A stretch of DNA of 50,504 nt from Thiobacillus denitrificans DSM 12475. Its GTDB lineage: Bacteria; Pseudomonadota; Gammaproteobacteria; Burkholderiales; Thiobacillaceae. The notes beneath the pieces are model-generated. The model saw nothing but the letters and a program-made list of their open reading frames with translations, did no database searches and was not told the origin of the DNA. The stretch lies in the NCBI RefSeq assembly GCF_000376425.1, contig NZ_AQWL01000015.1, forward strand, positions 1-50,504, read 5' to 3'. Below are positions 582 through 24,655 of this stretch, in pieces; position 1 is the stretch's first letter, and each line of letters begins with the position of its first letter. The position numbers were made by a program, and so were the translations under genes.

Positions 582-1712
582 ATGCTCATCCGACCACAGT
601 CCACGCCAGGTAAACACGTCGTCAATCTCGCCTTTTCGCTGAATCGGGCGTGCAACCTCCGCTGCAAGCACTGCAATTTGAGCAATGAGTTCAAGAAAGA
701 CATGACTTTCCTGGACGAGGCGCGGCTGGAACATTTCATGGAGGTCGGGCGCCGCTTTCTGGCACAGAACGAGGGACATTTCTCCGACATCAACATGCTG
801 ATCACCGGCGGGGAAGTCACCATGCTTCCAAAAGCCGAGTTCAGGAGAATCGTCACCAGGCTCTCGGAATACTTTTCCGAGCTGCGTGCGAACTTTCCCA
901 ACACATCGCGGGTCGCCCTAGCTACGAATCTTGCCGCTCTCTCGGAGGAAAAGAGGGAACTGATGCTTGAGCTTGGCCAGGATGACGACGTCCGTCTGGA
1001 GATCGCGACAAGCTACGACCTGACCACAGACCGGTTCAGGAAGCCGATGGTCCGCAAGAAATGGGAGCAGAACCTCGAGTGGTTCAAAAAGCGTGGCATC
1101 CGCCCGACCATCTTCTGGACCCTTTGCAAGGGAGATGGCCAGAACTTCAAGCGGATCGCCGACTACCTGTTCTCTTTCGACCTTCCCGTGACTTACCTCA
1201 TCACTTTGCCATTCGGCGAAGCCAGGACCAACTATGACACCATCATGCCGGCCTACGAGGATGTGCAGCGCTTTCTGATCAACTTCTACGAATATGCCTA
1301 TTCACGCGGCCTTCAACACCTGTTACCGCGCAAGACGTACTACGCCTTCGACAAGATCATCAACGTGATCTTCGAACATAAGGGCTATATCTTCTTCGAC
1401 GTGTTTGGTCAGGACGAAATTCTGGAGATTGAAAAGCACGGCAGACCGCCCAGCATCTTCGAGAATGAGTATTTCATGATGGCGAACGGCGATCCGCAAG
1501 CTGTTGCAGACCAGTTGAGCCGCACCTATGTCCGCTTTAGCCGAGACGAGCAGCGGTACCTGTCCAAGGTAGGGTGCTATGGCTGCCGCCACTTCGAAGC
1601 GTGCGGAGGCGGTCACCGGCTATCGAGAAAGATGTTCGACACGCCTGAAGCCTGCGCCGGCTACAAAGGTGTCTTCGAACATTTCCAGAGGCATCCGCTC
1701 CATGCCTACTGA
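582..1712 (+). CDS. radical SAM protein 1 (group A, reduced SPASM-type C-terminus)
   Basis: Radical S-adenosylmethionine enzyme of about 376 residues. The [4Fe-4S]/SAM motif is C24-NLR-C28-KH-C31 and the barrel has a GGE-type motif in ITGGEVTML. The C-terminus holds CYGCRHFEAC plus one later Cys, a CX2CX5C...C set compatible with one auxiliary cluster instead of the two of a full SPASM domain. A stretch around SYD..T.RF...WEQN is shared with radical SAM proteins 2 and 12, so these three form a subgroup. The frame is open back to an ATG at 489, but that codon lies in the preceding terminator. The gene overlaps radical SAM protein 2 by 11 bases. Substrate unknown; peptide modification is inferred from the family and context. 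Confidence 0.85.
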   Translation: MLIRPQSTPGKHVVNLAFSLNRACNLRCKHCNLSNEFKKDMTFLDEARLEHFMEVGRRFLAQNEGHFSDINMLITGGEVTMLPKAEFRRIVTRLSEYFSELRANFPNTSRVALATNLAALSEEKRELMLELGQDDDVRLEIATSYDLTTDRFRKPMVRKKWEQNLEWFKKRGIRPTIFWTLCKGDGQNFKRIADYLFSFDLPVTYLITLPFGEARTNYDTIMPAYEDVQRFLINFYEYAYSRGLQHLLPRKTYYAFDKIINVIFEHKGYIFFDVFGQDEILEIEKHGRPPSIFENEYFMMANGDPQAVADQLSRTYVRFSRDEQRYLSKVGCYGCRHFEACGGGHRLSRKMFDTPEACAGYKGVFEHFQRHPLHAY

Positions 1713-2730
1713 CTCATTCATCGACGAGCAGTTTGCCGATTTCACAGTCAAGGTGAACAGCCTGTGCAATGCAGAGTGCGCCCACTGTTTCCAGTATTCA
1801 AAGTCACGTCGCGAGCTGGATCTTATGGCGTTTGTAGGCATCCTCCCTGGCGTGATGCGCGCGCTGGCGGCGCTCGGCACACGGCGAGTCATGATGTCGA
1901 TCGTGGGTGGAGAGCCCTGCCTGCTGACCCCGGAGAGCAAGGTAAAGCTGATACAGGTAGTGTTGCCTGCCGTGGCACGGGCTTCGCGTGACGCAGGCCT
2001 TTGTACTGAGATTACGGCCATCAGCAACCTGCTGGTAGGACCGGGCCCGGTGGAATGGCTGGCTGAACTTGGCAGGCGCTCCCACGCCCTCGGCGTGCCG
2101 CTGCAATACGCCACCAGCTATGAGACCGATACTGGCCGGTTCGATGGGAACGGAAGCGCACTGCGTTGGGAAAAGAATGTGGCCTACCTGAGACCGCGAG
2201 GTAGGCTGAGCGTGCAGGTGACCCTGACTCGCGGCGTGTGTCTGGAGGTGGAGAACATTATTGAGGAGCTGGCGCAGCAGTTCGACAGCATCGACTTTCA
2301 ACCGCTCGTATCACTGCCGGGCTCCACGCCGGACTCCGACATCGTGCCCGACTATTCCGAGCTTGCAGACGCGCTTGCGGTAATCCGGCTAAAACAGGCG
2401 AGAATCGAGACTATTAACCTTCCGCTCACTGTACTGAAACCAGGTTTCTATCTCGGCGTCGACGATGACGGGACCCTCTCGACAGCTTTCAGCGAGGAGA
2501 TACATTGCAACGGCAACCGAGTACCGCTTAGAAAACCAGACCTGGAATCATGGCTTCGCTGGCAACTGACCTCACAAATGCGTGATCGCATTCGTCGGCG
2601 AGTGACGTATGGTCGTTGTCGAACCTGTCCGGCTGCCCAAGACTGTACGTTTGGTTTCGAGAAGTTGGTGTCAACCTTTGAACCGCTCGCCTGTCACGGT
2701 TTTCCGGGAGCGCTGCAGGCTAGCTTGTAA
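1702..2730 (+). CDS. radical SAM protein 2 (group A, reduced SPASM-type C-terminus)
   Basis: About 342 residues, starting at an ATG that overlaps the end of radical SAM protein 1 by 11 bases. The cluster motif is C22-NAE-C26-AH-C29 and the GGE motif is in IVGGEPCLL. The C-terminus has CRTCPAAQDC and one later Cys, again CX2CX5C...C. The middle carries the SYE..TGRF...WEKN stretch also seen in proteins 1 and 12. The open frame extends upstream to 1579, but that region encodes protein 1 in another frame. The 3' end overlaps the convergent primase gene by 37 bases. Proteins 1 and 2 may act as a pair or heterodimer; this is inference. Confidence 0.85.
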   Translation: MPTDSFIDEQFADFTVKVNSLCNAECAHCFQYSKSRRELDLMAFVGILPGVMRALAALGTRRVMMSIVGGEPCLLTPESKVKLIQVVLPAVARASRDAGLCTEITAISNLLVGPGPVEWLAELGRRSHALGVPLQYATSYETDTGRFDGNGSALRWEKNVAYLRPRGRLSVQVTLTRGVCLEVENIIEELAQQFDSIDFQPLVSLPGSTPDSDIVPDYSELADALAVIRLKQARIETINLPLTVLKPGFYLGVDDDGTLSTAFSEEIHCNGNRVPLRKPDLESWLRWQLTSQMRDRIRRRVTYGRCRTCPAAQDCTFGFEKLVSTFEPLACHGFPGALQASL

Positions 2731-3749
2731 TCAAGCCAGTCAACCCCCTTTTCGCCCTCGGGGACGTCGATTGGGGGATAGTGGACGGTGAATCGTATGC
2801 CGCGGTCTAACATCTTCTCCCACAGGGTGTCTGCCGCGCGTTCGCCAGCTTGCGAAACGTCCTTGTCCGCGAAGACCATCAACCATTGTGTTTCGGCTGG
2901 CGGTTCGAACCCGCCTAGAAGTGTCGCGTTGATTGCCGCCCAGCAGGGAATGTCGAACAACTCTGTGACGGCCAGCGCGGTTTCGATTCCTTCGCTGATG
3001 CCGAGCACCACGGCTGACCTGGAAACGCGAATCGCTGCGCCATGCATAGTCAGGTCGTCGGGGTAGGGCAGGACTTTCTTGGCGCTTTCGACAGGGGCTT
3101 TGTGGCCGTCTTCGGTTAGATACGTTCGGTGAAGGGTGATGCGCGCGTTGTCGGGGGCCGCGACACGGGCAATCATGGCCGGGTAACGTGCCACGAATTT
3201 ACCGTCCTCATCCACGTAGGGAAGGGAAGGGTGGAGCCGCAGGGCATAGATGTCTTCGGTGACTGCCAATCCGCGGCCGTTGAGGTAACGGCGAAGCACC
3301 TCGGCCTTCTCATCCATGATCGGGGCAGATTCTGCCCAGAGCTTCTTCGTGTATTCTCTCAGGTCGGCGTTGCGCTGGTCCCGCGCGGCGCGGTCAACCT
3401 GTTTGGCTGGCAACGTGACGACGGGCACCAAGACCGCCGGGCCGCCGCCGAGCACCGCGTCCACCTCGCGTAGTGCTTCGGGGAACGTCCAGCCCTTGAG
3501 CCAACGGAGGGTGGCGAACCCATCCGCCTTGGGGCCGCATGTGTTGCACACGACACCGCCCGTTTCCGCAACGTTCTTGAAGACACGAAGCCCGTCCTTG
3601 CCACCGTGGACCGGGCAGGGAAAATGCTTTTTTGGCTTGTCCAGCGCGTCATGCAATTCTGGCGCCAGGGAGCGGAGGATCTGGTCCCAGCGACCGGCAG
3701 CGCGCCGTCTTACTTCGTCTGCATCCAGGCGCTGAATTTTTGTATCCAT
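2694..3749 (-). CDS. TOPRIM-domain DNA primase (P4-alpha/TraC type)
   Basis: 351 residues. An N-terminal zinc ribbon is seen in CPVHG (about 45-49) and CNTCG (about 68-72), as in the zinc-binding domain of phage and plasmid primases. The C-terminal half has TOPRIM features: GISEGIETAL near 250-259 (acidic residue) and MVFADKD near 291-297 (the D-x-D pair). Such proteins make RNA primers on single-stranded DNA, useful after conjugative transfer. There is no helicase domain, so it is a stand-alone primase or needs a partner helicase. It lies downstream of ssb on the same strand with a terminator between, and its ribosome-binding site is weak. Confidence 0.85.
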   Translation of the reverse strand: MDTKIQRLDADEVRRRAAGRWDQILRSLAPELHDALDKPKKHFPCPVHGGKDGLRVFKNVAETGGVVCNTCGPKADGFATLRWLKGWTFPEALREVDAVLGGGPAVLVPVVTLPAKQVDRAARDQRNADLREYTKKLWAESAPIMDEKAEVLRRYLNGRGLAVTEDIYALRLHPSLPYVDEDGKFVARYPAMIARVAAPDNARITLHRTYLTEDGHKAPVESAKKVLPYPDDLTMHGAAIRVSRSAVVLGISEGIETALAVTELFDIPCWAAINATLLGGFEPPAETQWLMVFADKDVSQAGERAADTLWEKMLDRGIRFTVHYPPIDVPEGEKGVDWLDYKLACSAPGKP

Positions 3750-3774
3750 TGCAAATCAGGAGTGGAAAATGGAA

Positions 3775-3806
3775 AAACCCCTAAGGCACAAGGCACAAAG
3801 GGGTTT
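3775..3806 (-). terminator. Rho-independent terminator of ssb
   Basis: Read leftward, AAACCCCT (3806-3799) pairs with AGGGGTTT (3782-3775), followed by more T. It lies 12 bases after the ssb stop. The loop contains GCACAAGGCA in plus-strand orientation (3786-3795), also found in the loop of the terminator at 29193-29223. Confidence 0.8.
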
Positions 3807-3817
3807 AGTTACTTCAA

Positions 3818-4246
3818 TCAATACGGAGGATCATCATCCGGATCGAGACCGTTGGGAGGAGACGCGGAAGCGGCTCCAGCAGCGGCAGCAGGCTCCGAGG
3901 TCGAAGCCTTCTTTCCATTCAAGGAATTCAAAAGCTGGAAGTTGCCGACCACGATTTCGGTCGTGTAGTGCTTCTCGCCATTCTTGTCGTATTCACGAGT
4001 CTGGAGTTTGCCTTCAACGAAGACGAGATCGCCTTTCTTGGCATACTGTTCGATGAATGTCGCCGGCTGGCGAAATGCAACGCAGCGATGCCATTCAGTG
4101 CTCTCTTTCTTCTCGCCGCTTTTGTCCTTGTAGGTTTCGGACGTGGCAACAGTAATGTTGGCCAACGCGTCACCAGAGGGCATATAACGGACTTCGGGAT
4201 CACGGCCGAGGCGGCCGATAAGTTTCACTTCATTCAAGTTAGCCAT
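3818..4246 (-). CDS. ssb: single-stranded DNA-binding protein
   Basis: 142 residues, shorter than E. coli SSB. It begins MANLNEVKLIGRLGRDPEVR, the OB-fold signature of bacterial SSB, followed by WHRCVAF and the EGKLQTR.Y strand. A low-complexity Ala/Ser/Pro linker leads to an acidic tip DDDPPY, close to the usual DDDIPF peptide that recruits replication partners. AGGAG stands eight bases before the ATG. Mobile elements often carry ssb to protect incoming single-stranded DNA, which fits the primase next to it and the conjugation genes to the right. Confidence 0.96.
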   Translation of the reverse strand: MANLNEVKLIGRLGRDPEVRYMPSGDALANITVATSETYKDKSGEKKESTEWHRCVAFRQPATFIEQYAKKGDLVFVEGKLQTREYDKNGEKHYTTEIVVGNFQLLNSLNGKKASTSEPAAAAGAASASPPNGLDPDDDPPY

Positions 4247-4269
4247 TTTTGGGCTCCTATAGTTAGCTG

Positions 4270-4383
4270 TCAGATTTCCTGATCAGCACAAGAAAAGACC
4301 TCGGTATTGACGGTCTCAAACACAGCCACTTCGATACCATCGATAACAGTGACTTCCACAACTTCCAGGGTTTCGACAACCAT
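4270..4383 (-). CDS. 37-aa acidic small protein upstream of ssb
   Basis: A small frame beginning MVVETLEVVEVTVIDGIEVA and ending in ...CADQEI. It has an excellent AAGGAG seven bases before the ATG and sits 23 bases upstream of ssb on the same strand, so it is probably cotranscribed. It contains many Glu/Asp and no Lys, Arg or His, alternates with Val/Ile as in a beta strand, and has one Cys. I do not recognise it. It could be a leader or regulator of ssb, a DNA-mimicking acidic peptide, or a short conserved element protein. Confidence 0.55.
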   Translation of the reverse strand: MVVETLEVVEVTVIDGIEVAVFETVNTEVFSCADQEI

Positions 4384-5015: not shown

Positions 5016-5047
5016 GTCCATAACCATTTCAGAAGTTGGGTGAAGCC

Positions 5048-5493: not shown

Positions 5494-6612
5494 GTGCTCA
5501 GTACAGTCATTCTTAAGCCAACCAAATTCTGCAACGCGGACTGCGCCTATTGCTCCGCACCGCCGGATGGCCATGGCCGCTGGTCGTTCGATACGTTCAA
5601 GCGCCTGATGGATAACTTGGCCCCCCACCTGACAGAACGCGCCATGCTGCTCTGGCACGGTGGAGAACCGATGCTGATGGGACCGGACTTCTACTGGAAG
5701 GCATACGAATACGCCTCCAGCCTCAAGCCGGAGATCCATTTCGCCATGCAGACCAACATCCTGCTGTACGACAGCGCCAGGTGGAGGTCGGTCTTCGCGG
5801 ACATCATGGCTGGTGCGATCTCGACAAGTTTCGACCCGGACGGCAAGCGCCGGACGCTCAAGGGAAGTGCCGAGGCCTACAACGCGCGTTTCTGGCGCAA
5901 GCTTGACGAGGTTCTGGGCGATGGTTTTGAACCCCTTGTTATTGGCACATATGACGAAGCTTCGGCGCCGTTGGCCATGCAAATGTATGAAACGTCCCTC
6001 TCATATGGGGATAGGGCTTTCGATCTCAGGGTCAATTACGCCTATCCGGCTGGCCGCTCGGCTGGGACAGGTGCCGCGATCACCCCGGAAGCCTATGCCG
6101 ATACCCTGCTTGGCCTGTATGAGCGCTGGATGGCTGACGCGCCGGGCATTCTGATCACCCCACTCGACCAGATGCTCCGCAAGGTATTGGGTGAGGAAAT
6201 CTCTCGTTGCCCGTGGACGAAGAGTTGCGGGGGGCGCTTCCTATCCGTCGAGCCGAATGGTGATGCCTACAACTGCGGTGAATTTTCGGACATGGGCGAG
6301 GGGTATCGTTTCGGGAACGCCTTCACCCAGCCGGTTCAGGAGCTTCTCGCGTCCGTTCCGGCCCGCATCATCCGCCGCCGCGCCTATTCGCTCCCCACCG
6401 ATTGCCAATCGTGCCGCCACTATCACGAATGCGAGGGCGGCTGCTCGCGCGACTCCGCGCTCTACGGGAGCGGCGTCCTCGGCAAGTATTACTACTGCGC
6501 TTCCTGGAAGCGGGTTTTCGATCGCATCAAGGAAAGCGTCAGAACAGGCGAAGCATTCCCGCTGATGGAGAGCATTGGCCTTGGCCGGCACATTCGGAGG
6601 AATGTGGCATGA
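5494..6612 (+). CDS. radical SAM/SPASM protein 3 (group B, full SPASM)
   Basis: 372 residues with a GTG start three bases after the previous stop. The cluster motif is C13-NAD-C17-AY-C20 and the GGE motif is in LWHGGEPMLM. ISTSFDPDGKRRTLKGS in the barrel is shared in outline with proteins 4, 5, 10 and 11. The C-terminus has all seven SPASM cysteines: CGG..NGDAYNC, then CQSCRHYHECEGGC, then a last Cys in YYYC. This is the arrangement of anaerobic sulfatase-maturating and peptide-maturating enzymes with two auxiliary [4Fe-4S] clusters. ATGA overlap with protein 4 indicates translational coupling. It probably acts on a ribosomal peptide such as the one encoded at 8777. Confidence 0.88.
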   Translation: MLSTVILKPTKFCNADCAYCSAPPDGHGRWSFDTFKRLMDNLAPHLTERAMLLWHGGEPMLMGPDFYWKAYEYASSLKPEIHFAMQTNILLYDSARWRSVFADIMAGAISTSFDPDGKRRTLKGSAEAYNARFWRKLDEVLGDGFEPLVIGTYDEASAPLAMQMYETSLSYGDRAFDLRVNYAYPAGRSAGTGAAITPEAYADTLLGLYERWMADAPGILITPLDQMLRKVLGEEISRCPWTKSCGGRFLSVEPNGDAYNCGEFSDMGEGYRFGNAFTQPVQELLASVPARIIRRRAYSLPTDCQSCRHYHECEGGCSRDSALYGSGVLGKYYYCASWKRVFDRIKESVRTGEAFPLMESIGLGRHIRRNVA

Positions 6613-7715
6613 GGGCCGCCAAGGCTGATCTGCTGGCTTATGTGAAGCCGACCAACCGCTGCAACGTGGGCTGCTCCCATTGCTACTTGTCCGAGGAGGT
6701 CCGGGCAACCAAGGACAAAATGTCCAGCGATACGCTGGCCAACGTTGGTCATTTTCTGTCCGACATGGCTAGTCGGGAGAACAAGGGCCGTGTCCATGTC
6801 CTCTGGCATGGCGGTGAGCCCATGAACCTGAACCCGGATTGGTACCGCGAGGCCGGAAGTGTTCTTGACCACACGCTCGGCGCTCACGTAGAGAGCATGC
6901 AGACCTCGCTCATTCCCTTCAATTCGGACTGGATTGACCTGGTACACGAGCGCTTCGACGGCCATCTCGGATCTTCGGTCGATTTTTCCGGCCTTCGCAC
7001 CATCAAGGGCTCAGGCGAGCGGTACATGTCATTTTGGCTGAAAAAGGCAGACGAGGCGCGTACGGCCGGCATTCAGATCACGCCGGGTATGGTTCCTACC
7101 CGCAACGATCTCGGAAGGGTGTTCGAAATTCTGGACTGGATGGAGGCGCATGATTTTCCTGCCTTCAACATCGACCGTTACAACCAGTTCGGAGAAAAGC
7201 AGGCTGACTGCCCGTCCAACGTGGAACATGCCAGTTTCCTCACCGAGCTTTTTGACATGGTCATGGCGAGGGTGGGCGGCCACGCGCCCCAGATCAATGT
7301 CATCGAAGCCGCGCTGGGAGGTGTGTTGAATGGCGAGCCCGGCGATCGCTGGGGAGGACACTGCCAGTCGAATTTCGTGGTTATCGAGCCGGATGGCTCG
7401 CTCAATACCTGCCCGGACCGGAGCGCATGGGAAGGTTCATTTGGGCAGGTGCAGGCAGGGCATCAGGCCTTCTCTGGTTCTTCCATGCGCCGCAAGTGGA
7501 TTAGGCTTCAGGAATCCGGGCATCGAAATAATCATTGTGCCTCCTGCGAATACGCTTCATGGTGCCGGTCTGGTTGCCCCATCACTCACAACGATCCGGA
7601 CGGCGAGGGGGATTGTTCTGGGTACAAGTCTTTCCTCAACCATGTGAAGGGCTACGTTTCCACGCAAGATGGCATGGCCACGGCGATACGCTACATGGGA
7701 TGGAGCCGGGCATGA
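6609..7715 (+). CDS. radical SAM/SPASM protein 4 (group B, full SPASM)
   Basis: 368 residues. The ATG overlaps the stop of protein 3 (ATGA) and is preceded by GGAGGA. The cluster motif is C18-NVG-C22-SH-C25, the GGE motif is in LWHGGEPMNL, and the SPASM part has HCQSN..PDGSLNTC, CASCEYASWCRSGC and a final Cys in GDCSGY. The barrel stretch MQTSLIPFNSDW aligns with MQTNILLYDSARW in protein 3 and IQTNLMKYSPEW in protein 5, so the three look like products of duplication. The reading frame is open upstream, but that part is the frame of protein 3. It ends in another ATGA overlap with protein 5. Confidence 0.88.
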   Translation: MRAAKADLLAYVKPTNRCNVGCSHCYLSEEVRATKDKMSSDTLANVGHFLSDMASRENKGRVHVLWHGGEPMNLNPDWYREAGSVLDHTLGAHVESMQTSLIPFNSDWIDLVHERFDGHLGSSVDFSGLRTIKGSGERYMSFWLKKADEARTAGIQITPGMVPTRNDLGRVFEILDWMEAHDFPAFNIDRYNQFGEKQADCPSNVEHASFLTELFDMVMARVGGHAPQINVIEAALGGVLNGEPGDRWGGHCQSNFVVIEPDGSLNTCPDRSAWEGSFGQVQAGHQAFSGSSMRRKWIRLQESGHRNNHCASCEYASWCRSGCPITHNDPDGEGDCSGYKSFLNHVKGYVSTQDGMATAIRYMGWSRA

Positions 7716-8773
7716 AGCACTTCGATCACCTGGTCTATCTGCGTATCCACGAGGGGTGCAACCTTTGGTGCGAGCACTGCTATATCCCGGCCAATCCCAA
7801 GCGGATGGGACTGGATAACATCGCGACCGTACCGAAAACCATCGCTGCCTTCGCCAAGACTGGCGACCATGTTCGTTTGCAATGGCATGGCGGTGAACCG
7901 ACCCTTGTTGGCGCGGCATGGATGCGCGAAGCCATCGAGATCATCGAGGCCAACACTGACTATCGCTGGTCGCACGACATCCAGACCAACCTCATGAAAT
8001 ACTCCCCGGAATGGGCCGCGCTTTTTCATGAGCATTTCGACAGCCATATTGGGGTTTCTTGGGACCCGGTGATACGCATGTCCAGGAAGTCAGAGGATGG
8101 TAACGCTCGCTATGAATCCGGTTTTCGGGTCAACCTTGCGCAGGCAGTGGCAGACGGCCTTGCCGTCAGCATGACGATCACTGCGACCAAGCCATTCTTC
8201 GAGCGCTTCAGGAATCCGTTGCAGTTGTTTGCGCTGCTGGAGGATATGGGCGTGATGGAAGCCCATATTGAACGCCTGACAAAGGTCGGTCGTGCGCGCG
8301 AAACGTGGGACGCGATCGGCGTGCGCCACGCAGAATACAGCCACGGCATGAGCAGGATTCTGAGGGCCTACCAGGCCTACCTCAGAGCCGGAGGACGCGT
8401 TCGGATCTCTCCATTCGATAGCATGGTGGAAGCATTCATCAGCTCGGATGCCGGACTTGGGTGCTGGTCAGGTGCGTGCGACAGCCGGTTCCACACCATC
8501 GATGCCAACGGCTACAAGTCGGGCTGTACCGCATTGACCTCGGAGTATGACAACACCCGCTCCAAGGCAAACGTGATCCGCATCGAGAACATAGGGCGGG
8601 CAAGGGACGCGCATCGCGTCAATTGTGCGGCCTGCAACTTCAAGGCAGTTTGCTCCAGCGGCTGTCTTGCTCTGGAAGTGGAGGACGGTTCAGGCGAGTG
8701 CTCCGGCGCTTCCCGCCTTCTGGGTACCGCCCAAAACATCGCAAATCTGCAAGCCAAAGAAATGGGAGTCTGA
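7712..8773 (+). CDS. radical SAM/SPASM protein 5 (group B, full SPASM)
   Basis: 353 residues, coupled to protein 4 by an ATGA overlap. The cluster motif is C16-NLW-C20-EH-C23 and the GGE motif is in QWHGGEPTLV. The C-terminal cysteines are in ACDSRF..ANGYKSGC, CAACNFKAVCSSGC and GECSG, a complete SPASM pattern. The gene stops three bases before the ATG of the candidate precursor peptide, which makes it, with proteins 3 and 4, a likely enzyme acting on that peptide. Members of this family form thioether, C-C or beta-amino-type modifications; which one applies here cannot be read from the sequence. Confidence 0.88.
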   Translation: MKHFDHLVYLRIHEGCNLWCEHCYIPANPKRMGLDNIATVPKTIAAFAKTGDHVRLQWHGGEPTLVGAAWMREAIEIIEANTDYRWSHDIQTNLMKYSPEWAALFHEHFDSHIGVSWDPVIRMSRKSEDGNARYESGFRVNLAQAVADGLAVSMTITATKPFFERFRNPLQLFALLEDMGVMEAHIERLTKVGRARETWDAIGVRHAEYSHGMSRILRAYQAYLRAGGRVRISPFDSMVEAFISSDAGLGCWSGACDSRFHTIDANGYKSGCTALTSEYDNTRSKANVIRIENIGRARDAHRVNCAACNFKAVCSSGCLALEVEDGSGECSGASRLLGTAQNIANLQAKEMGV

Positions 8774-8776
8774 TTG

Positions 8777-9148: not shown

Positions 9149-9150
9149 GC

Positions 9151-11816: not shown

Positions 11817-11839
11817 CACTCCACAGGAAAGCTGAAACA

Positions 11840-13889: not shown

Positions 13890-13890
13890 A

Positions 13891-15826: not shown

Positions 15827-15876
15827 CTGTCCTCTCCCTTTATGATTGTTGCCGTTAATTGGTATGGCTGGCACGT

Positions 15877-16997: not shown

Positions 16998-17832
16998 GGA
17001 TGCCGTCCCAGTCGTTGTCCAAGGCATCCGTAAGGATGACATTGCGCACCGGCTCCTCGAACTCGAGGTCGTCGCGGGAAGGAGCCTCGATGGTCACGAA
17101 ACGTCCGGAGTCAAGCTCAACTGTCACGGCCCAGGCATTGGTCATGTGCCTACTGAAGGAGACGCGCGTTCCCCGGATTACCGGATGAAGGTCACAGATA
17201 AAGTAGGGATGGTCTGTCCCGCGCAAGCGGCATGATTGCCCGCAGGCAGTGAGGCCCTTGCCCGTCTCGATGTAGAACCGGAACTCCCCGTCCTTGCCAA
17301 GGAGGTCGTCGTCGTCAATGACAAACGAGAGATGGCTCGCCTCATCGGCTTCCTGGCTTGAAGACCGCGTGTCGAAGCGATAGTGACTGGCAGTCGGTGC
17401 CACCACATGTACCCGGCTCAGTTTGCCATCGCGCACCCGCAACGACATGCCACGCGAGGCCGTGCCGTCTGCATGGAAATGGAGCTTTGGAACCATCTCG
17501 ACGAGATCCCCGTTCCCGACCAGTCGCCCTTGGCCGTCGACATGAAGCAAGTCTTCATAGACGAAGTGCCCCAAGGCGTCCTCGATGGCAATGTGGTAAC
17601 ACGTATCGGCGCGGTCGAGTATGTTCACCTTCAAGGGAAGACGGAGCCATGGCCGCCTCCTGCCGAACTCACGGATTTCATGATCGGCGTAGGCATAGCG
17701 GTCGAGACCGTCATGGACCCCGAATTCCTCCGAGAGGAAGTGGGCGGCACTCGCGGCGTCGCCCGCCTGCACGGACTCGATGAATCCGCAGATCGAATCA
17801 GAGGCGTCCATGGAAGACATGCTTGTGCTCAT
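16987..17832 (-). CDS. unknown protein, about 281 aa, leftward radical-SAM operon
   Basis: Soluble, acidic protein with no recognised family. The N-terminal part (DSICGFIESVQAGDAASAAH) is helical; the rest is beta-rich, ending ...NDWDGIHAG. Cysteines occur at ADTCYH, ACGQSCR and FICD. A C-terminal stretch, ELDSGRFVTIEAPSRDD, faintly resembles MHDGSRHAMAIEAPCDF in the next gene upstream, so the two may be related. In-frame ATGs at 17832, 17820 and 17811 are all possible starts and none has a strong ribosome-binding site; the gene overlaps its upstream neighbour in every case. Context suggests a partner of the radical-SAM enzymes. Confidence 0.65.
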   Translation of the reverse strand: MSTSMSSMDASDSICGFIESVQAGDAASAAHFLSEEFGVHDGLDRYAYADHEIREFGRRRPWLRLPLKVNILDRADTCYHIAIEDALGHFVYEDLLHVDGQGRLVGNGDLVEMVPKLHFHADGTASRGMSLRVRDGKLSRVHVVAPTASHYRFDTRSSSQEADEASHLSFVIDDDDLLGKDGEFRFYIETGKGLTACGQSCRLRGTDHPYFICDLHPVIRGTRVSFSRHMTNAWAVTVELDSGRFVTIEAPSRDDLEFEEPVRNVILTDALDNDWDGIHAG

Positions 17833-18418
17833 AGTCGTGGCCGGTCGGCATCCGGGCGTTGATGGAGACCCCAAAGTAGGCAAGTGCAGGATCGAGCTCA
17901 TAGGCAATCAGGTGCCGGCCAGCCGGGTACACTGTCCGCTTCTCCACAAAGCGGAAGCCGACCATTCGTTGCTCCACCACCTCGATATCCTGGTGCGACA
18001 GAGTCCACAGCAGCTGACTGCCATCCGATCTTGGCATGGCTGAACTCGTAAGCGGGGTATCCTGAAAGACCGAGAAGTCGCATGGTGCTTCAATGGCCAT
18101 CGCGTGGCGGCTCCCGTCGTGCATCTCGATCATGACCTCCCGGTCTTTGCCGGAAAGGTCATATAGGCCGATTTCAACGAAGTGACGGTCATTGTCTCGA
18201 ACGATGTAGAGCGGGTCGCGGTGGCTGCCAACGATCTCGACCAGGCGGGCAGTGTGGTCAATGGTCGCCGTTGAATTGCCGCATCGCACCGATTTAATCC
18301 TACGAAGGTCATGCGCTTTTCCAAAAACTGTCAGCAGACCGATGTCATGAGTCACGCGCTCGCCTACATCATGGAAGAAGGCGATGCTCCGGTGAGCCTT
18401 CAGGTCGCACTCAAACAA
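17798..18418 (-). CDS. unknown protein, 206 aa, TTG start, leftward radical-SAM operon
   Basis: The open frame runs far upstream, but that part overlaps radical SAM protein 8. The start I choose is a TTG at 18418, exactly six bases after AGGAGG, which overlaps the end of protein 8 by eight bases. The protein would begin with FECDLKAHRSIAFF. It is beta-rich, with IEMHDGSRHAMAIEAP in the middle, and has no membrane segment. No family recognised. It sits between radical SAM proteins 8 and 7, paired with the 281-residue protein downstream, as the unknown pair at 9151/9822 sits beside protein 6. Confidence 0.65.
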   Translation of the reverse strand: MFECDLKAHRSIAFFHDVGERVTHDIGLLTVFGKAHDLRRIKSVRCGNSTATIDHTARLVEIVGSHRDPLYIVRDNDRHFVEIGLYDLSGKDREVMIEMHDGSRHAMAIEAPCDFSVFQDTPLTSSAMPRSDGSQLLWTLSHQDIEVVEQRMVGFRFVEKRTVYPAGRHLIAYELDPALAYFGVSINARMPTGHDYEHKHVFHGRL

Positions 18419-19484
18419 CTGCGGCCTCCTCGTTCGTGAAAGCGCGCGGCCCGTAGCAGGTGCCGTGCTTGGAGTCATGGCCGGAGTAGAGCTTGTTGGC
18501 GATGCCGACGCCATGGAAGGAGCAAACTTCGTAGTGCTCGCAGGTGCCACAGCCGTAGGTGTCGTGCCGAAGCCAGCCGGCGTTGCGAGCCTGTAGTGAC
18601 AGCAGGCGCGGTGCGCGCGGCAGGCCTTCCAGCGCATCGTCGCAGAGGTTGCCCACGGGAGCCATGCCGTTGCGCCCGTCAAGAATGAGGTCTCCGAATG
18701 GCGTGAAGATCGTGGCGTAAAGGTCGAGTCCCCGACCGATATGGAAAGCCTGGCCAACGAATGAGGCGTAGTCCCCATGGGCACAGGTCAGGCGCTTCAT
18801 CTCCCGCCTATAGTGGGCTTCATGCCATGGACGGGTGGCATAGAATTCACGGGCGTACCGGATGGCCTCGTTCACGTCGAACTGGTACTGGCGCCGGAGC
18901 AGGTTGACCTGTGTTGGCGTGAAGACGATCGAGACCGGGTGGTCGCCGATGACTGACTCCAGCTGTGCAGCCAGTTCTTCGGGCACCATGCGGTTGATCA
19001 TGACCTCCGACAAAAGCACTTGCACATGGTTGTGGCCATTGCTCGCCAAGGCTGATTGAACCCGCAGTGCATAGGGTTCCTTGGCCGTCAGCCGGAACGG
19101 GTCAATCGTCATGTCCAGCACCACGTCGCCGTGGCCAAGAATCATCTGAACGCTCTCGGCATAATGTTCGTCCAGCCCTTCGCTTGCCAGGGTGAGCGTG
19201 ACTCCGATGGGCAGTTCATTTCTGGCGCAAGCATCGAGGTAGCCCTTCAGCATCGCATGGGGCATCAACGGCATGTCGCCGTACACCAGCACCGGACGGA
19301 ACACCATGCCATGTTGGTTTCCGTGGCGTGCCAGGTGTTTCATTGCCGTCTCAAACTCACCCAGACCGACCACAGCCTCGCCATGGCGACGTTCCTCCAG
19401 CGACAGAGTGCAGCCGGTGCACGACCCCGCGCACTGGTTCATCACTTCGACTGTGACGTCCCAGGCTTTAGAACCCGAGTTCAC
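18411..19484 (-). CDS. radical SAM protein 8 (group C, reduced SPASM-type C-terminus)
   Basis: 357 residues with a GTG start preceded by GGAGGG five bases away; it overlaps the end of protein 9 by 17 bases. The cluster motif is C18-AGS-C22-TG-C25, nearly the same as CPGSCAGC in protein 6. In place of GGE it has VLVYGDMPLMP. The C-terminus has CGTCEHYEVC and a later Cys in GTCYG. The ...SLEERRHGE stretch after the cluster matches LTKDERLSHG in protein 6 and LSEEERKRD in protein 7. A radical-SAM fold is well supported; the substrate is unknown. Confidence 0.83.
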   Translation of the reverse strand: MNSGSKAWDVTVEVMNQCAGSCTGCTLSLEERRHGEAVVGLGEFETAMKHLARHGNQHGMVFRPVLVYGDMPLMPHAMLKGYLDACARNELPIGVTLTLASEGLDEHYAESVQMILGHGDVVLDMTIDPFRLTAKEPYALRVQSALASNGHNHVQVLLSEVMINRMVPEELAAQLESVIGDHPVSIVFTPTQVNLLRRQYQFDVNEAIRYAREFYATRPWHEAHYRREMKRLTCAHGDYASFVGQAFHIGRGLDLYATIFTPFGDLILDGRNGMAPVGNLCDDALEGLPRAPRLLSLQARNAGWLRHDTYGCGTCEHYEVCSFHGVGIANKLYSGHDSKHGTCYGPRAFTNEEAAVV

Positions 19485-20769
19485 GGAATCCCTCCACCAT
19501 GTTGTTCAGGAACGAGAGGTCGCGCTGGTACTCGCGGATGACCGGCAGATAGCCGTAGCAATGTTCGCCGTCGTCCTTGTGAAAGCGCCTGAATAACGGC
19601 ACGGCATGGGAGGCGCAGAAGGACTTGTAGCGACATGGCGCGCACTTCCGGTTCGTCAGGAGCTCACGGATGACTTCGTTGAGCATCCGATCGAGCGCGC
19701 CGCCATTTTCCGTGGCCATGTCGATGATGCTGTTCTGTCTGAGGTTGCCCAAGGGGGGGTAGCCAAAGTTTGAATCGAGGACATGCTGGCCCATGCTTTC
19801 CGACCAGACGAAGACGTCGAGGTTGTGGTCGATGTAGAGGCTGGTCAGGAAGATGTCGCGGGTTTTCTCTCGTACCGACTTGACAAGGAACGGGTCTGGT
19901 TCGCGCAACCTTGCTGGATCAACGTAGCCATCTTCTCCAACGGCCTCAATCTCCCGGTATTCATCCAGCAGGGTCACGGCATACTCGCCGAGCGGAATGG
20001 GGTGGATGTCGTGGCCACGGGCAACGATGCCTTTGGCGAGAACGGCGAGCCATTCAGCTTCCTCGTCCACGGTGGCCATCTGGGTCTTGTTGAAGTTGCG
20101 GGTGCGCGAGGGCGAATAGCGGCCGAACTGGATTTGTGCGCCGATGTCGCCAAAGATCGACACGCACTCGTCGAGAAAACGCTCGGCCGGATAGTCACGG
20201 ATCAGGCGCTTGGTCAGGAGCAGTTCGGGATAGCCGTTCAGTCCATTTTCTCGCATTGCCAACACCGCATCACGGATGGCCTCTGGCGAATCCGCGAAGG
20301 GGTCGTAGATGATTTCGAGGAAGACGCTGCCGCCGAGAATGGACTTCATGGTGGCGAACTTCTCGATCTCCTCATTGGTGGGGGGCGCCACCGAAAACAC
20401 CCGGTAGTCGGTATGCAGCATGCCGCCGAGGGCAATAAGCTCGTCGACTGGCAGCTCGGCGTGGTTACCGAAGCGGAAGGTATAGCTGTGGTGCTGCACC
20501 TGATAGCCGTTCCGGCCGAAATAGCCGCCTTCCTTGTAGTTGAGCGTCTTTTGAACCCAGTCGCTGTATTCGAGCACCCGACGGTTGATGAGCTGAAGGT
20601 CATCCCCTTTCAAGATCGGCTCGAACCGCGCGTGGTTCTTGAAGTGCTTGTCCACGATGCAGCCGGGGCAGCCGCGCGCGCACCCGTCGTAGCTGTGCAC
20701 GGCGATCTGCAGGTCGTCCATGACGCCGAGGGTACTGCCGGTACGGTCAATGATGCTTGAGTGCTTCAT
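19468..20769 (-). CDS. radical SAM protein 9 (group C, reduced SPASM-type C-terminus)
   Basis: 433 residues, the longest of the set. The cluster motif is C30-ARG-C34-PG-C37. The GGE position reads FRFGNHAELPVDEL. The C-terminus has CAPCRYKSFC and a final Cys in EHCYG, the same CX2CX5C...C pattern as its relatives. A second in-frame ATG at residue 17 (MDDLQIAVHS) is an alternative start. It begins four bases after the end of protein 10. Likely part of the same peptide-modification complex. Confidence 0.82.
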   Translation of the reverse strand: MKHSSIIDRTGSTLGVMDDLQIAVHSYDGCARGCPGCIVDKHFKNHARFEPILKGDDLQLINRRVLEYSDWVQKTLNYKEGGYFGRNGYQVQHHSYTFRFGNHAELPVDELIALGGMLHTDYRVFSVAPPTNEEIEKFATMKSILGGSVFLEIIYDPFADSPEAIRDAVLAMRENGLNGYPELLLTKRLIRDYPAERFLDECVSIFGDIGAQIQFGRYSPSRTRNFNKTQMATVDEEAEWLAVLAKGIVARGHDIHPIPLGEYAVTLLDEYREIEAVGEDGYVDPARLREPDPFLVKSVREKTRDIFLTSLYIDHNLDVFVWSESMGQHVLDSNFGYPPLGNLRQNSIIDMATENGGALDRMLNEVIRELLTNRKCAPCRYKSFCASHAVPLFRRFHKDDGEHCYGYLPVIREYQRDLSFLNNMVEGFRELGF

Positions 20770-20773
20770 TTAC

Positions 20774-21901
20774 TCAATAGAGCCTGGATTGGTTGAGGAC
20801 GTCGCCGGGAAGCCGATCGCGTTCGGCTTGGAGCCATTCGACGTAGCCTTTGGCCCCGAAACAGTCATCACCATTGCGGTTCTCCTTCCAGAACTCCATC
20901 AGGCAGTGGCCGCCGTGTTCGCAGCCGCCGCAGTCGGCATTGCCGTTCCGAAGCACCTGTTTTCTCAGGTAGGCGCGGCGCGCAGGCGAGGAAAGCACAT
21001 CGGCAAAGTCCTGGCTCAGGATGTTCCCAAACGGCTGCATGAATTCCTGGCACCCGTTCCGGTAGTCTGGGAGCACGAAGTCGCCATTGGGCAGCAGGAA
21101 CAGGGTCTGCCCGGCAATATTGGCGAGGCCGCCCTTGGCCTGCTGTGCCAGGATGAACCGCATCTGACCGATCTCCGGCGGGTTGGCACCGGTCGCTCTC
21201 AGCTTCAGCCAATGCCGGGTCAGCCTGGACATGAATTCGGAATACGCCCGCATCGTCGGGGCAAAGCGCGTATAGGCGCCACTGTCGTTCTGCTCGTTCC
21301 ACATAAACGGAAGCCAGCTGGTTTCGGCGACGCCATGGTCGGTCAGGTAATCGAGGACTTGTTCCGGCCCAAACTCCAGAATTTCACGGTTCACAACGCT
21401 GATGGTGGACACCCTGAGACCGTCCAGACGCGCCCCCCGCACCGACCGTTCCCAGTGGCGGACGTAGCCAGCGCCCCGCATCGTCCAATCGAATGAAGTC
21501 TGGATCTCGCCGCCGCAGTGCTTGTGGAAAAGCGCATGCCATGATGGATCGACATTGATTAGCGAGGACAGGACCGTATGCTTGACGGTATATCCGTCAC
21601 GCGCTGGGAAGGCGTCTCCGATGGTCACAACGGCGCTCTCGAAGTATTCCTGCCCCATCTCGGTTGGCTCACCGCCATACCAGTAGCAGACGATGGTCTT
21701 CTGCTTCAGGCCGCGCATCCGGTAATAGTCGGCTACCTTGCCGCAGGCCCTGCCAAGGTTCTCGACCGAAAGAATGTCCTTCGAGCGCCTCTGTTCCTTG
21801 GAAAGGTAGCAGTGTGGGCAATTCAGGGAGCAGCGCAGGCTCGGCATCATCGTGAATACGAAGTACCCGCTCTCGATGCTGAAGGATTCCAGGTTCATCA
21901 T
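20774..21901 (-). CDS. radical SAM protein 10 (group B barrel, reduced SPASM-type C-terminus)
   Basis: 375 residues. The cluster motif is C24-SLN-C28-PH-C31 and the GGE motif is in CYWYGGEPTEM. The barrel matches proteins 3-5 (VLSSLINVDPSWHALFHKH; IQTSFDW). The SPASM part has lost cysteines: the first pair is absent around LLPNGDFVLPDYRNG, leaving CGGCEHGGHC and DDCFG. It therefore looks like a group B enzyme reduced to one auxiliary cluster. The start overlaps the HAD-gene stop by ATGA. Confidence 0.85.
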   Translation of the reverse strand: MMNLESFSIESGYFVFTMMPSLRCSLNCPHCYLSKEQRRSKDILSVENLGRACGKVADYYRMRGLKQKTIVCYWYGGEPTEMGQEYFESAVVTIGDAFPARDGYTVKHTVLSSLINVDPSWHALFHKHCGGEIQTSFDWTMRGAGYVRHWERSVRGARLDGLRVSTISVVNREILEFGPEQVLDYLTDHGVAETSWLPFMWNEQNDSGAYTRFAPTMRAYSEFMSRLTRHWLKLRATGANPPEIGQMRFILAQQAKGGLANIAGQTLFLLPNGDFVLPDYRNGCQEFMQPFGNILSQDFADVLSSPARRAYLRKQVLRNGNADCGGCEHGGHCLMEFWKENRNGDDCFGAKGYVEWLQAERDRLPGDVLNQSRLY

Positions 21902-22419
21902 TTGCGCATCAAGAGCATGTCCAGTTCTAGCAGCGTCTGCTCGGTGAGCCCCTCAAAGTAATCGGTCATGACGAGATGGCTCGCGCCTGTGGTGGGGAAC
22001 TCGTATGCCAAGTCATCCACGGCCACCCATTGCTCGATGTGGTAGCTTTCCACACAGGCAAGAATCTCGTCTTCCCTGAGCGCGCCAAGCACGCGCGGTG
22101 TGGTGCCGAGTACCCGTGGTTGCAGGTCGGGCGAAAAGAAGCCCCGCAGCTCATCAATACTCCATGTCTCGCGCCAGCTCGAGACAATGACGATTTCGAC
22201 ATCACGATGCTTTCTCAGCCACTCTTCGAGCAGTGGCAGCTTGCTGAACGTTCCTGTCTGGGCTCGATGCAACACCCCGTCGATGTCCAGCATCAGGACG
22301 GGGCCTTGTGGTGCACGCTGGAGTTCGCCATGGATCGTAACGGGCGATTTGTCCTGTGTGTTTTCGGGTGTGTCCTTGCCCGCGAAGAAAGCGGAAAACA
22401 GGTCAGTCAGCAGCGTCAT
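21898..22419 (-). CDS. HAD-fold hydrolase-like protein
   Basis: 173 residues. After a helical N-terminus, MLDIDGVLHR (about 43-52) gives the DxDGV nucleophile motif, IVSSWRETW supplies the Ser of motif II, and VAVDDLAYEF is a motif IV-like acidic site. This layout fits the compact HAD domain also found attached to RNA-repair proteins. A phosphatase is expected but the substrate is unknown. ATGA overlaps on both sides place it inside the leftward radical-SAM operon between proteins 11 and 10; such an enzyme is not a usual partner of radical-SAM peptide maturases. Confidence 0.8.
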   Translation of the reverse strand: MTLLTDLFSAFFAGKDTPENTQDKSPVTIHGELQRAPQGPVLMLDIDGVLHRAQTGTFSKLPLLEEWLRKHRDVEIVIVSSWRETWSIDELRGFFSPDLQPRVLGTTPRVLGALREDEILACVESYHIEQWVAVDDLAYEFPTTGASHLVMTDYFEGLTEQTLLELDMLLMRK

Positions 22420-23561
22420 ATTCCGCCCTCCATGCCGACGAGTCCCTCCGACCAGGCGCGGACATTGGCAGGGCCGTGCCGAGCGATCGCGTCATCGATG
22501 GCCGAGAAACATGACTGCCACGTACCGCAGAGCGGGGTCTTGCCGTCGATTTGACCGGAATGTTGAATGGCCTCCATCGTGCAGCCACCACGACAGGAAA
22601 CCCGCCATTGGCAGGCTTGGCAATCGGGATGAAGGTTGCCATATCGCTTTGCAATTCCTTGATGCATGCCCCAGTCGAACTCCCGGGCGAGCGCATTCCC
22701 GAGCGGCAGGAGGCCGGCATCCGCCATGTCGAGACAAACGTACAGGGAGCCGTCGGGATCAAGATTGAGGGATTCGTGCGCGCAGTTGTCGCTGAACGGG
22801 CATCCCGAGCTCTGGGTCCCGGTTCCACCGTCAACCTCGGCCAACCGCAGCAGCAAGAGCTGCATGAATGGATCCACCGATATCCGGCTGTTCATCAGCC
22901 AGGACGAACAGGCCTTCCCGAAGCTTTCGGCCATCGCGCCAGGTTCGGCGGGGGAAATTGGGCTTCCCCCATGGAAAACAGGACGCAGGCGCATCGGACG
23001 GCCAGCTTCTTCGCTTATTGCGATCTCGCTGCTGAGGTAGGGGAGGGAGTCCCGGTCCACCACCACGATCGCTGCCGGATTGAAGCTCCGGCGCTTCAGG
23101 CTGTCGAGCGAGATGCGAATCGTTTTGCGGTAGAGCTCTGCGCTGCCGTTCAGGGTTCGCTTATTGCCGAACGAATCAATGGAGGTGCTGATTCGCTTGC
23201 CGAACAGAGCCTGCAGGTTTGAAATGCGATCAGGCGGCCCGACAAGGTTGGACTGGGTTCCGTCCACAACGTGGCTGAAATAACCGGAAAAGACCTCTCG
23301 TCCAACGGTGACGATCTCGCGCAGTTGGCGTTTCGGGATCGTCAGGATTTCCCCGCCGATGTACTGGATGTGGATTTGGCCATTGCGGTGAATGCCGCCG
23401 AAGCTTGGGTTTTCCAGCAGTTCAAGAATGTATTTTGCGGACCGCCTGTATTCGCTCGCCGTCATGTATCCCTTGTGGTCAGACCGCGACGAGCAATACG
23501 CGCAATCCGCGTTGCACCGCCGGGTCAGACGCACATGGAGGGTGAACGAGGGACGCACCAT
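22416..23561 (-). CDS. radical SAM/SPASM protein 11 (group B, full SPASM)
   Basis: 381 residues. The cluster motif is C16-NAD-C20-AY-C23, the same CNADCAYC as protein 3, and ISTSIDSFGNKRTLNGSAE matches the barrel of protein 3. The GGE is in YIGGEILTI. The C-terminal part has CPFSDNC and DPDGSLYVC, CQACQWRVSCRGGC and PLCGTW, a full SPASM set plus an extra Cys pair. It shares one base (TGATG) with the end of protein 12 and overlaps the HAD gene by ATGA. Confidence 0.88.
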   Translation of the reverse strand: MVRPSFTLHVRLTRRCNADCAYCSSRSDHKGYMTASEYRRSAKYILELLENPSFGGIHRNGQIHIQYIGGEILTIPKRQLREIVTVGREVFSGYFSHVVDGTQSNLVGPPDRISNLQALFGKRISTSIDSFGNKRTLNGSAELYRKTIRISLDSLKRRSFNPAAIVVVDRDSLPYLSSEIAISEEAGRPMRLRPVFHGGSPISPAEPGAMAESFGKACSSWLMNSRISVDPFMQLLLLRLAEVDGGTGTQSSGCPFSDNCAHESLNLDPDGSLYVCLDMADAGLLPLGNALAREFDWGMHQGIAKRYGNLHPDCQACQWRVSCRGGCTMEAIQHSGQIDGKTPLCGTWQSCFSAIDDAIARHGPANVRAWSEGLVGMEGGI

Positions 23562-24655
23562 CAGGCCGCTTCACCGGCGGATTCTTCCACCACCTGTCGG
23601 ACGTGCTTGATGAAACCCTTGAACCCGGGACATTCGCCTTCCCCGTTCCAGCTGTCGTGCAGGACACCGCACGCGGACTGGCACACGGCATACTCCTCGC
23701 ACCGCATGCAGATGGAGCGGGGCCGTACAGCATGGAAGTGCTCACGCCGGTAGTCCATGCCCTGGAAGATCTGTTCGACGCTGTAGGACTGGACACTGCC
23801 GATCATCGGCGCTTCCTTTTCACCGCCGGCGCACAGGCAAGTGCGTGCGTCTCCGTTCCAGTCGATGTCGATCGATCCCGTGATGATTGGGCAAACGATG
23901 TCGTCCATCGGACGCTCCTCGACAATCGCGTGCATCATCGATTCGACCGGGTTTACATGCAGCTCGCGGTCGCCCGCGCGATGCTCAAGAAACCAGTCCG
24001 TCAGGTTCACGAGGAATGATGTTGTCTGCTCGAAGCTCGGAAACACGTCACGCGCATGGTGCTTGCCGTCCCCGGTCGGGATAAAGAAGCCCATGTGCAC
24101 GTTCTTCACGCCCAGTTCATGGACGATGTGACCCATGAGCTTGGGCACGCCCATCCTGACCATGCCGAGGGTGATCGCCGAAGTAATGCCAAACCTGCGT
24201 CCGACGCGCCTGGAATCATCGATCATGGCCATGACGTTCTGCTCCCACCGGGTGCGCAGCGTCTGCTTGGGAAAGCGCGTGTCGATCTCGTAGGAGGTCT
24301 GAGCCACGTCGAAAAGTTTCGCGATAGCCAGCGCCTCGTCGGTAACAAGGTTGGTGACGATGCCCAGCGATGCGGTCTTGCCTTCAATGCGACCGAGAAT
24401 GTCTTTCGCCTTGGGCAGGACACGTTGGTAGAACTCCATGCCCAGCATCGAGGGTTCGCCGCCGATCACGTGGATCTCAGCGGCGTCATGTTTGTCGGAG
24501 TTGCGGAGGTAGTCAGCGATGGAGCGAATGCTGGACAGAAAAAGCTCCTCGGACATCATGCCAGAAGCCTTTTTCTTCTCTGACGAGATGTAGCAGTGCG
24601 TGCAACGCAGGTTGCAGTCGCGCGTAACGTTGATGTTGCACAGTAAGGAATGCAT
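23561..24655 (-). CDS. radical SAM/SPASM protein 12 (group A barrel, full SPASM)
   Basis: 364 residues from the ATG with GGAG seven bases upstream; another in-frame ATG lies six bases earlier. The cluster motif is C14-NLR-C18-TH-C21 and the GGE is in VIGGEPSML. TSYEIDTRF...RWEQN matches the signature stretch of proteins 1 and 2. The SPASM cysteines are complete: IVCPIIT..NGDARTC, CMRCEEYAVCQSAC and GECPGF. It is the first gene of the leftward operon, so group A enzymes are at the head of both the 582 unit and this one. Confidence 0.88.
   Translation of the reverse strand: MHSLLCNINVTRDCNLRCTHCYISSEKKKASGMMSEELFLSSIRSIADYLRNSDKHDAAEIHVIGGEPSMLGMEFYQRVLPKAKDILGRIEGKTASLGIVTNLVTDEALAIAKLFDVAQTSYEIDTRFPKQTLRTRWEQNVMAMIDDSRRVGRRFGITSAITLGMVRMGVPKLMGHIVHELGVKNVHMGFFIPTGDGKHHARDVFPSFEQTTSFLVNLTDWFLEHRAGDRELHVNPVESMMHAIVEERPMDDIVCPIITGSIDIDWNGDARTCLCAGGEKEAPMIGSVQSYSVEQIFQGMDYRREHFHAVRPRSICMRCEEYAVCQSACGVLHDSWNGEGECPGFKGFIKHVRQVVEESAGEAA

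Follow-up and report, generated by a model that had tools for sequence, protein, structure and literature searches.

Six recurrent radical SAM enzymes and a candidate precursor peptide with a Cys-Tyr/His repeat tail, encoded near conjugation genes in Thiobacillus denitrificans DSM 12475

Conserved genes for radical S-adenosylmethionine (SAM) enzymes on large plasmids are mentioned in three papers, which leave the role of these genes open in the portions of their text available to us. On the Pseudomonas plasmid pQBR57, a 16-gene arylsulfatase/SAM region was described as possibly 'involved in biosynthetic processes' (Hall, 2015; PMC4989453). Radical SAM enzymes also belong to the core genome of a megaplasmid family, where a functional association with the pilus and chemotaxis genes was called unclear (Cazares, 2020; PMC7070040). 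A 2026 paper likewise assigns no role to the conserved radical SAM cluster, and the term 'RiPP' (ribosomally synthesized and post-translationally modified peptide) does not occur in its available text (PMC13391042). Here, we describe a related locus in 50,504 nucleotides of Thiobacillus denitrificans DSM 12475 (hereafter the window, to which all coordinates refer), which encodes twelve radical SAM proteins (r1–r12), a candidate precursor peptide and a conjugation operon. The pQBR57/pQBR103/IncP-2-like megaplasmid region and the window share six core radical SAM enzymes (r3, r4, r5, r10, r11 and r12), the partner protein orfA and the precursor, with r3-r4-r5-precursor-orfA in the same order. 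It is very likely, judging from the sequences, that the core set tailors this precursor, so that the locus would be a RiPP system on a conjugative element.

The published arylsulfatase/SAM region of pQBR57 has the same position as r3 to r10 on that plasmid. All eight cassette proteins of pQBR57 and the window are reciprocal best matches, with 34–52% identity between the core radical SAM enzymes; in the window, r10–r12 stand in a separate run. The window also differs in that its genes lie on an F-type element, split into units, and in having r6–r9 and a flavin adenine dinucleotide (FAD) enzyme where the pQBR-type region has large radical SAM proteins, a phosphoenolpyruvate (PEP)-utilising enzyme and a 2-oxoglutarate (2OG) oxygenase instead. 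The PEP-utilising enzyme, of 1117 amino acids, is encoded amid the radical SAM operon of pQBR57 (L003:26261-29614). The papers on the megaplasmid region name no precursor in their available text (PMC4989453, PMC7070040, PMC13391042), and we found no paper that names the precursor, or a RiPP for this cassette, in the open-licence literature as judged by titles and the beginnings of abstracts. An earlier reading of the window (the original prediction) had called it an undescribed maturation system. This needs narrowing, because the radical SAM cluster of Pseudomonas megaplasmids has already been published, its role being left open, but it holds for the precursor and the RiPP assignment. Nor is a RiPP beside transfer genes new as such, since lanthipeptide genes have been reported near genetic-exchange genes (available text of PMC12715929).

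Among known chemistries, the triceptide enzymes (XncB, OscB, MscB, YxdB, HaaB, YhhB, ScaB) likewise combine radical SAM proteins with aromatic-X-acceptor motifs. According to the accessible text, the enzymes that form such three-residue cyclophanes link Trp, Phe, Tyr or His to the C-beta of the residue at i+2, and Asn, Ser and Ala are known as acceptors (PMC11002830). Unlike triceptides, our system has a Cys before each aromatic residue, at least six enzymes per precursor and an export-type precursor, and it misses the family cut-offs. No cyclophane-family cut-off was reached (AmcB, YhhB, GrrM/OscB, FxsB, XyeB), the best score being 55.6 bits for AmcB versus 425. The cut-off of 450 for DynA, the dynobactin maturase, was also missed (best r3, 128 bits), and r12 scored 67 bits with NCBIfam PapB, below the cut-off of 340. 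We rejected sulfatase maturation, under which the plasmid region was formerly labelled, as the best score was 116 bits (r3) versus a cut-off of 349.

Two other systems resemble the window in their substrates. The CXXX-repeat target TIGR04117 likewise has a Cys at every fourth residue of a C-terminal repeat near radical SAM genes. Our precursor is covered by no NCBIfam model, TIGR04117 being the nearest; its cut-off of 50 was missed, with 21.6 bits for the Thalassospira member and no match at E≤0.1 for 13 of the 14 members. The His-Xaa-Ser system (HxsA/B/C) likewise joins a repeat substrate to a radical SAM pair, but the substrate differs from that of the window, and the window enzymes are far below the HxsB and HxsC cut-offs where these matches are listed. 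The same genome encodes HxsB (564 bits), HxsC (338 bits) and HxsA (127 bits), all over cut-off, at the end of contig C3 (L047:2-3490). We rejected this set as a missing part of the pathway, because it forms a known system that is complete in itself. Genes further along contig C3 look Tn7-like by eye.

A motif scan found CX3CX2C (starting at residues 13–55) together with a C-terminal CxxCx5C...C in all twelve radical SAM open reading frames (ORFs). This joint motif marks exactly 12 of the 28 picked window ORFs of at least 280 amino acids and none of the 16 others, and a GGE[P/V/I] motif is present in 8 of the 12. Only r1, r5 and r12 pass the Pfam Radical_SAM cut-off, so that Pfam alone would miss most of the twelve. 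r6–r9 have no Pfam or NCBIfam match; their profile can be aligned over 335 columns to the profile of the remaining radical SAM proteins (hhalign E 1.9e-17), and the triad and auxiliary-cluster cysteines are invariant when they are aligned with four Rhizobium relatives. Seven of the 25 Radical_SAM matches (E≤0.001) of the 3.6 Mb genome fall in these 24 kb.

The radical SAM genes span 489–24661 in three same-strand runs, in which neighbours mostly abut or overlap by a few bases. Unit 1 (489–2730, forward strand) encodes r1 and r2, unit 2 (5494–13171, forward) r3–r6, and unit 3 (24661–15924, reverse) r7–r12. At a distance of 5.7 kb follows an F-type type IV secretion (conjugation) operon (30322–49976, reverse), identified by Pfam, with TraG, TraH, TraF, TraN, TrbC, TraU, an S26 peptidase, TraC, TraV, a DsbC-like protein, TraB/TrbI, TraK and TraE. 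Hence, the original prediction was right about twelve proteins with N-terminal CX3CX2C in 24 kb, to which the auxiliary-cluster motif can now be added, about three operon-like units of overlapping or abutting genes, and about conjugation genes in the right-hand half.

It had further proposed one shared pathway, which we tested by co-occurrence. Neighbourhoods were fetched, and reciprocal best matches were sought between the window proteins and those of 14 other loci. Counterparts of r3, r4 and r11 occur in all 14 loci, those of r5 and r10 in 13, and that of r12 in 12; orfA has a counterpart in 13 loci, and in 13 the precursor lies inside the locus. In ten of the 14 loci, a single strand carries r3-r4-r5-precursor-orfA, then r11, r12 and r10. 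Additional genes are interspersed in this core order in Pseudomonas-type loci, the core set is split in Cysteiniphilum and Rhizobium, the Methylococcales locus is a fragment, and the window carries the core genes in two facing runs. Six radical SAM enzymes thus recur in 12–14 of the 14 loci, and in ten of these they share a strand with the precursor. The sequences are therefore best read as placing unit 2 and half of unit 3 in a single pathway. A pathway of all twelve was rejected, as r1 and r2 lack support in the 14 loci and in plasmids.

The comparison has a defined scope. It omits L014 and L018, which nearly repeat L015 and L011, L022 (P. kairouanensis, with no r3 in the contig or genome), the plasmid of P. 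aeruginosa DN1, and a paralogous set in Cysteiniphilum (the C8 cassette). Some gaps reflect the material: the stretch from P. mucoides, which counts among the ten single-strand loci, stops within r10, the Oceanospirillaceae r10 is spread over two ORFs, and the contig of Methylococcales does not extend to where r12 and r10 could appear. Pairwise locus distances correlate among the six core enzymes (r 0.75–0.95), as expected from joint inheritance, though shared ancestry alone could give such a correlation. Complete loci hold 5 to 12 radical SAM proteins each by motif.

r3 is encoded in 12 of the 13 genomes that were found by the precursor tail alone (best E per genome ≤4.2e-110, identity 50–57%). 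At E≤1e-50, among 398 phylum-sampled and 399 order-sampled genomes, only the window's own genome has r3, and likewise it alone has r10 in the phylum sample of 398. Among 72,556 plasmid records, r3 is found on 136 and r10 on 139 (E≤1e-60), both in the same four genera, and 130 of the 136 r3 records are from Pseudomonas. Many of the r3 plasmids among the matches listed (60 of 136) are large, and many are from patients. This recurrence across several kinds of bacteria on large plasmids looks like one old way of chemically tailoring a peptide.

In unit 2, the radical SAM/SPASM genes r3 (the putative core maturase; 5494–6612, 49–57% identity to its counterparts), r4 (6609–7715, 44–51%) and r5 (7712–8773, 41–49%) are followed on the forward strand by the precursor candidate (8777–9148, 123 amino acids), orfA (9139–9825) and orfB (9822–10664). 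OrfA is predicted to form a partial beta-alpha barrel. Relatives of orfB lie between r11 and r12 in some loci (30% identity over 124 amino acids in Thalassospira, 31% over 98 amino acids in a Pseudomonas oleovorans ORF). The remaining core radical SAM/SPASM genes are on the reverse strand in unit 3, namely r10 (20774–21901, 46–61%), r11 (22416–23561, 33–42%) and the PapB/DynA-like r12 (23561–24661, 40–48%). On several Pseudomonas plasmids, relatives of r10 are labelled 'transcriptional regulator' (e.g., L003:35401-36558). This is probably a misannotation, because r10 has radical SAM and auxiliary-cluster motifs.

The precursor candidate, which is absent from the original prediction, sits between r5 and orfA/orfB. 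Its N-terminus is hydrophobic and resembles a signal peptide, and all its cysteines are confined to the tail CYTN-CYKN-CHCN-CHGS-RGWR. A tblastn search matched 124 of the 72,556 plasmid records (E≤0.1, many over the tail alone), from Pseudomonas (118), Vibrio (4), Rhizobium (1) and Stutzerimonas (1). We also scanned one genome per species, covering 84,980 bacterial and archaeal species, with a degenerate DNA pattern of the tail plus stop. This yielded 13 loci: seven from Pseudomonas and one each from Oceanospirillaceae, Psychromonas, Cysteiniphilum, Methylococcales, Thalassospira and Roseovarius. Together with the window and five plasmids, there are 19 tail proteins, of 116–142 amino acids from the first start codon.

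Repeats were counted in 16 of these 19 proteins, leaving out the near repeats L014, L015 and L018, and 14 relatives entered the tail alignment. The 60 units, 2 to 6 per protein, all read C-[YH]-X-[NAS]. The Cys of position 1 defines the unit; Tyr stands at position 2 in 13 units and His in 47, position 3 is variable, and position 4 is Asn in 19, Ser in 14 and Ala in 27. For the genome loci, the search pattern had fixed the C-terminal position and, within the last two units, Cys, Tyr/His, His-Gly, Arg and Trp, which makes their invariance there circular in part. The pattern placed no constraint on position 4 or on any of the earlier units. A hydrophobic N-terminus is present in all 16 proteins (best Kyte-Doolittle 15-mer 1.39–2.45).

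We propose that the protein encoded at 8777–9148 is the substrate, with an N-terminus like an export signal and a short C-terminal core of 2–6 units C-[Tyr/His]-X-[Asn/Ala/Ser], ending in CHGSRGWR. The six radical SAM/SPASM enzymes would tailor this core in the cytoplasm, helped by orfA and in part by orfB. The likely reactions would include the formation of a carbon-carbon ring from Tyr or His to the Asn, Ala or Ser two residues on, i.e., three-residue cyclophanes, and further reactions on the Cys residues. The aromatic-X-acceptor tripeptides that triceptide systems need are present in 60 of the 60 units, and we favour cyclophanes as the outcome with moderate confidence. A locus-specific oxygenase would add changes, either the FAD enzyme (window and Cysteiniphilum) or the 2OG-Fe oxygenase (Pseudomonas plasmids), and r6–r9 could add still others as accessory enzymes. 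The modified protein would then leave via Sec and act in the periplasm or at the donor surface, with the adjoining transfer or pilus apparatus.

With a likely substrate, a repeat code and six core enzymes named, the proposal allows a direct test: one peptide, with one mass shift per repeat. At least six radical SAM enzymes, which match no curated family among the models listed, accompany one short peptide. If they indeed all act on it, no larger group of such enzymes would be known to us for any one precursor.

The genomic setting of the relatives points to a possible link between RiPP chemistry and mating. A prepilin/PilV-type gene, the end of a type IV pilus operon, ends 0–111 bp 5' of r3 on the same strand in 9 of the 14 loci (in one case overlapping by a base). 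In Thalassospira and Rhizobium, such a gene lies 1.3 and 0.7 kb 5' of r3, both carrying Shufflon_N, and Psychromonas has a PilV-like gene 2.2 kb past r10 on the opposite strand. No prepilin/PilV-type gene was found in the 6.4 and 2.9 kb examined upstream in Roseovarius and Methylococcales. On plasmid TP114, PilV acts as an adhesin and contributes to the selection of recipients (available text of PMC9045228). By analogy with this setting, a role in mating is conceivable, although we advance it only tentatively. We are more doubtful still about the specific form that a densely cross-linked RiPP is part of the mating apparatus, for example by serving next to the PilV adhesin as a hard ligand or a component of the tip, or by acting as a mating signal. 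If true, this RiPP would have its role in horizontal gene transfer.

A second Cysteiniphilum locus (contig C8, L040/L041) has a PilV-type gene, an export-type small protein ending in CYVESYTPCYSNHSDCGRGSW, an ORF and four radical SAM genes related to r3 and r4. It is possibly a sister class with another precursor candidate, and suggests a general slot after PilV for radical SAM peptide cassettes. The original prediction had seen the genes as probable mobile cargo. To us, the cassette resembles a recurrent component of large plasmids more than a cargo belonging to a single element. In P. kairouanensis, the precursor gene (L022, 5238–5588) lies near a ParA-like gene, as identified by eye.

Several results weigh against our interpretation. 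The 14 loci are not independent, because seven are from Pseudomonas or share its layout, and the search pattern preset the stop codon as well as some positions of the last two units. The draft genome of P. kairouanensis encodes the precursor yet gave no match to r3, the precursor of the Vibrio plasmid lies ~137 kb from the radical SAM operon as the sole core gene placed elsewhere there, and Methylococcales lacks r5 between r4 and the precursor. Among the matches listed (best 25), no radical SAM protein reaches any equivalog cut-off. With regard to mating, no reference pilus protein matches any ORF of the window (E≤1e-3), no PilV-type gene precedes r3 there, and 5.7 kb separate the cassette from the F-type genes, so that the link in the window itself is by analogy only. 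In addition, PLSDB types 114 of the 136 r3 plasmids as non-mobilizable and 22 as conjugative. This typing appears to miss such plasmids, because pQBR57 is typed as non-mobilizable in PLSDB and yet was moved by conjugation (available text of PMC4989453).

An alternative explanation might be a metal- or redox-active peptide, either a metallophore or a quinone cofactor that derives from Cys/Trp and whose synthesis the FAD enzyme would assist. The tail is rich in Cys and His and has a Trp in 14 of the 14 aligned sequences (partly fixed by the pattern), Pseudomonas loci encode a 2OG-Fe oxygenase, and the FAD protein resembles QhpG, LodB and GoxB, which make tryptophan-derived quinones. Yet, this protein misses the cut-offs of both QhpG (89.6 bits versus 240) and LodB (74.0 bits versus 400), and only 1 of the 14 other loci has a counterpart (41% identity, adjoining orfA in Cysteiniphilum). 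We regard this explanation as unlikely. A bacteriocin-like peptide, released by the plasmid carrier against plasmid-free neighbours, seems to us a rather poor prospect. Plasmid-borne RiPPs are often bacteriocins, and the model for the maturase of the antibiotic dynobactin scores best for r3, r4, r5 and r11, albeit below its cut-off. However, the last eight residues are near-constant from Alpha- to Gammaproteobacteria (again partly fixed by the pattern), unlike those of arms-race peptides, and competition leaves the position after PilV unexplained. Moreover, none of the shared window genes looks like an exporter or immunity gene, although no systematic search was made.

It would also be conceivable that the three units are unrelated cargos, i.e., independent radical SAM pathways gathered on one element. 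The weak or missing counterparts of r1 and r2, and the occurrence of r6–r9 together in a single other locus, would agree with this. The recurrence of the core enzymes described above already contradicts it for these six, and as an account of the whole locus it is very improbable, but it may still apply to r1 and r2. We give hardly any credence to the remaining possibility, that the tail, through its CX3CH spacing, attaches haem c by a variant motif and the protein is a small exported cytochrome, with the radical SAM genes as unrelated neighbours. It would fit the C-X-X-X-C-H in 16 of the 16 tails counted and the exported appearance of the protein. In contrast, Tyr occupies 13 of the 60 units where the His ligand of haem would be expected, direct tandem motifs four residues apart would leave little room, and six radical SAM enzymes accompany the tail across classes.

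The divergent radical SAM genes r6 (10665–11816, forward; CPGSCAGC and CxxCx5C, 36% identity to Rhizobium pRlX5), r7 (15924–16997, reverse; 35%), r8 (18411–19484, reverse; 35%) and r9 (19468–20769, reverse; 61%), the last three also with the Cys motifs, recur together only on Rhizobium pRlX5 (35–61%), where they are neighbours in the order r12-r6-r8-r7-r9. For r6, pRlX5 is the only plasmid match at E≤1e-5, and Thalassospira also has a 22% match. The FAD-dependent monooxygenase/halogenase-like enzyme (11840–13171, forward) matches Trp_halogenase above cut-off, and CmlS, QhpG, LodB and GoxB below. Also in the run of unit 3 are orfC (16987–17832, reverse), included by position and without a family match, and orfD (17798–18418, reverse, start uncertain), with 26% identity over 182 amino acids to a Rhizobium ORF. 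A HAD-family phosphatase-like gene (HAD_SAK_2; 21898–22419, reverse; PF18143, 84 bits), which overlaps r10 and r11, has a counterpart in none of the 14 other loci; tightly packed as it is, it may be an insertion or a local extra gene.

Membership of r1 and r2 in the pathway is unproven on the present comparison. r1 (489–1712, forward; CNLRCKHC, GGEV, CxxCx5C; PF04055, 44 bits) has as its sole reciprocal best match in the 14 loci a 22% identical protein inside the Thalassospira operon, and no plasmid relative at E≤1e-15. r2 (1702–2730, forward; CNAECAHC, GGEP) has no reciprocal best match in the 14 loci and no plasmid relative at E≤1e-8. The Toprim-like and SSB-like genes between units 1 and 2 (2694–4246, named by eye) have a counterpart in none of the 14 loci. 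The same is true of the run between units 2 and 3 (13173–15874, reverse), which encodes an M50 protease and, by eye, J-domain-like, membrane and DUF2167-like proteins, and which we therefore rejected as part of the pathway.

The window covers 50,504 of the 50,632 bases of its contig, so that the rest of the element must be sought on other contigs. Positions 1–46 have exact copies close to where contigs C6, C14 and C21 start, and are probably a repeat where the assembly broke. Beside the conjugation operon, positions 25830–29136 encode a DUF1574-like protein (below the Pfam cut-off) and, by eye, an MBOAT-type acyltransferase, possibly a surface O-acylation pair.

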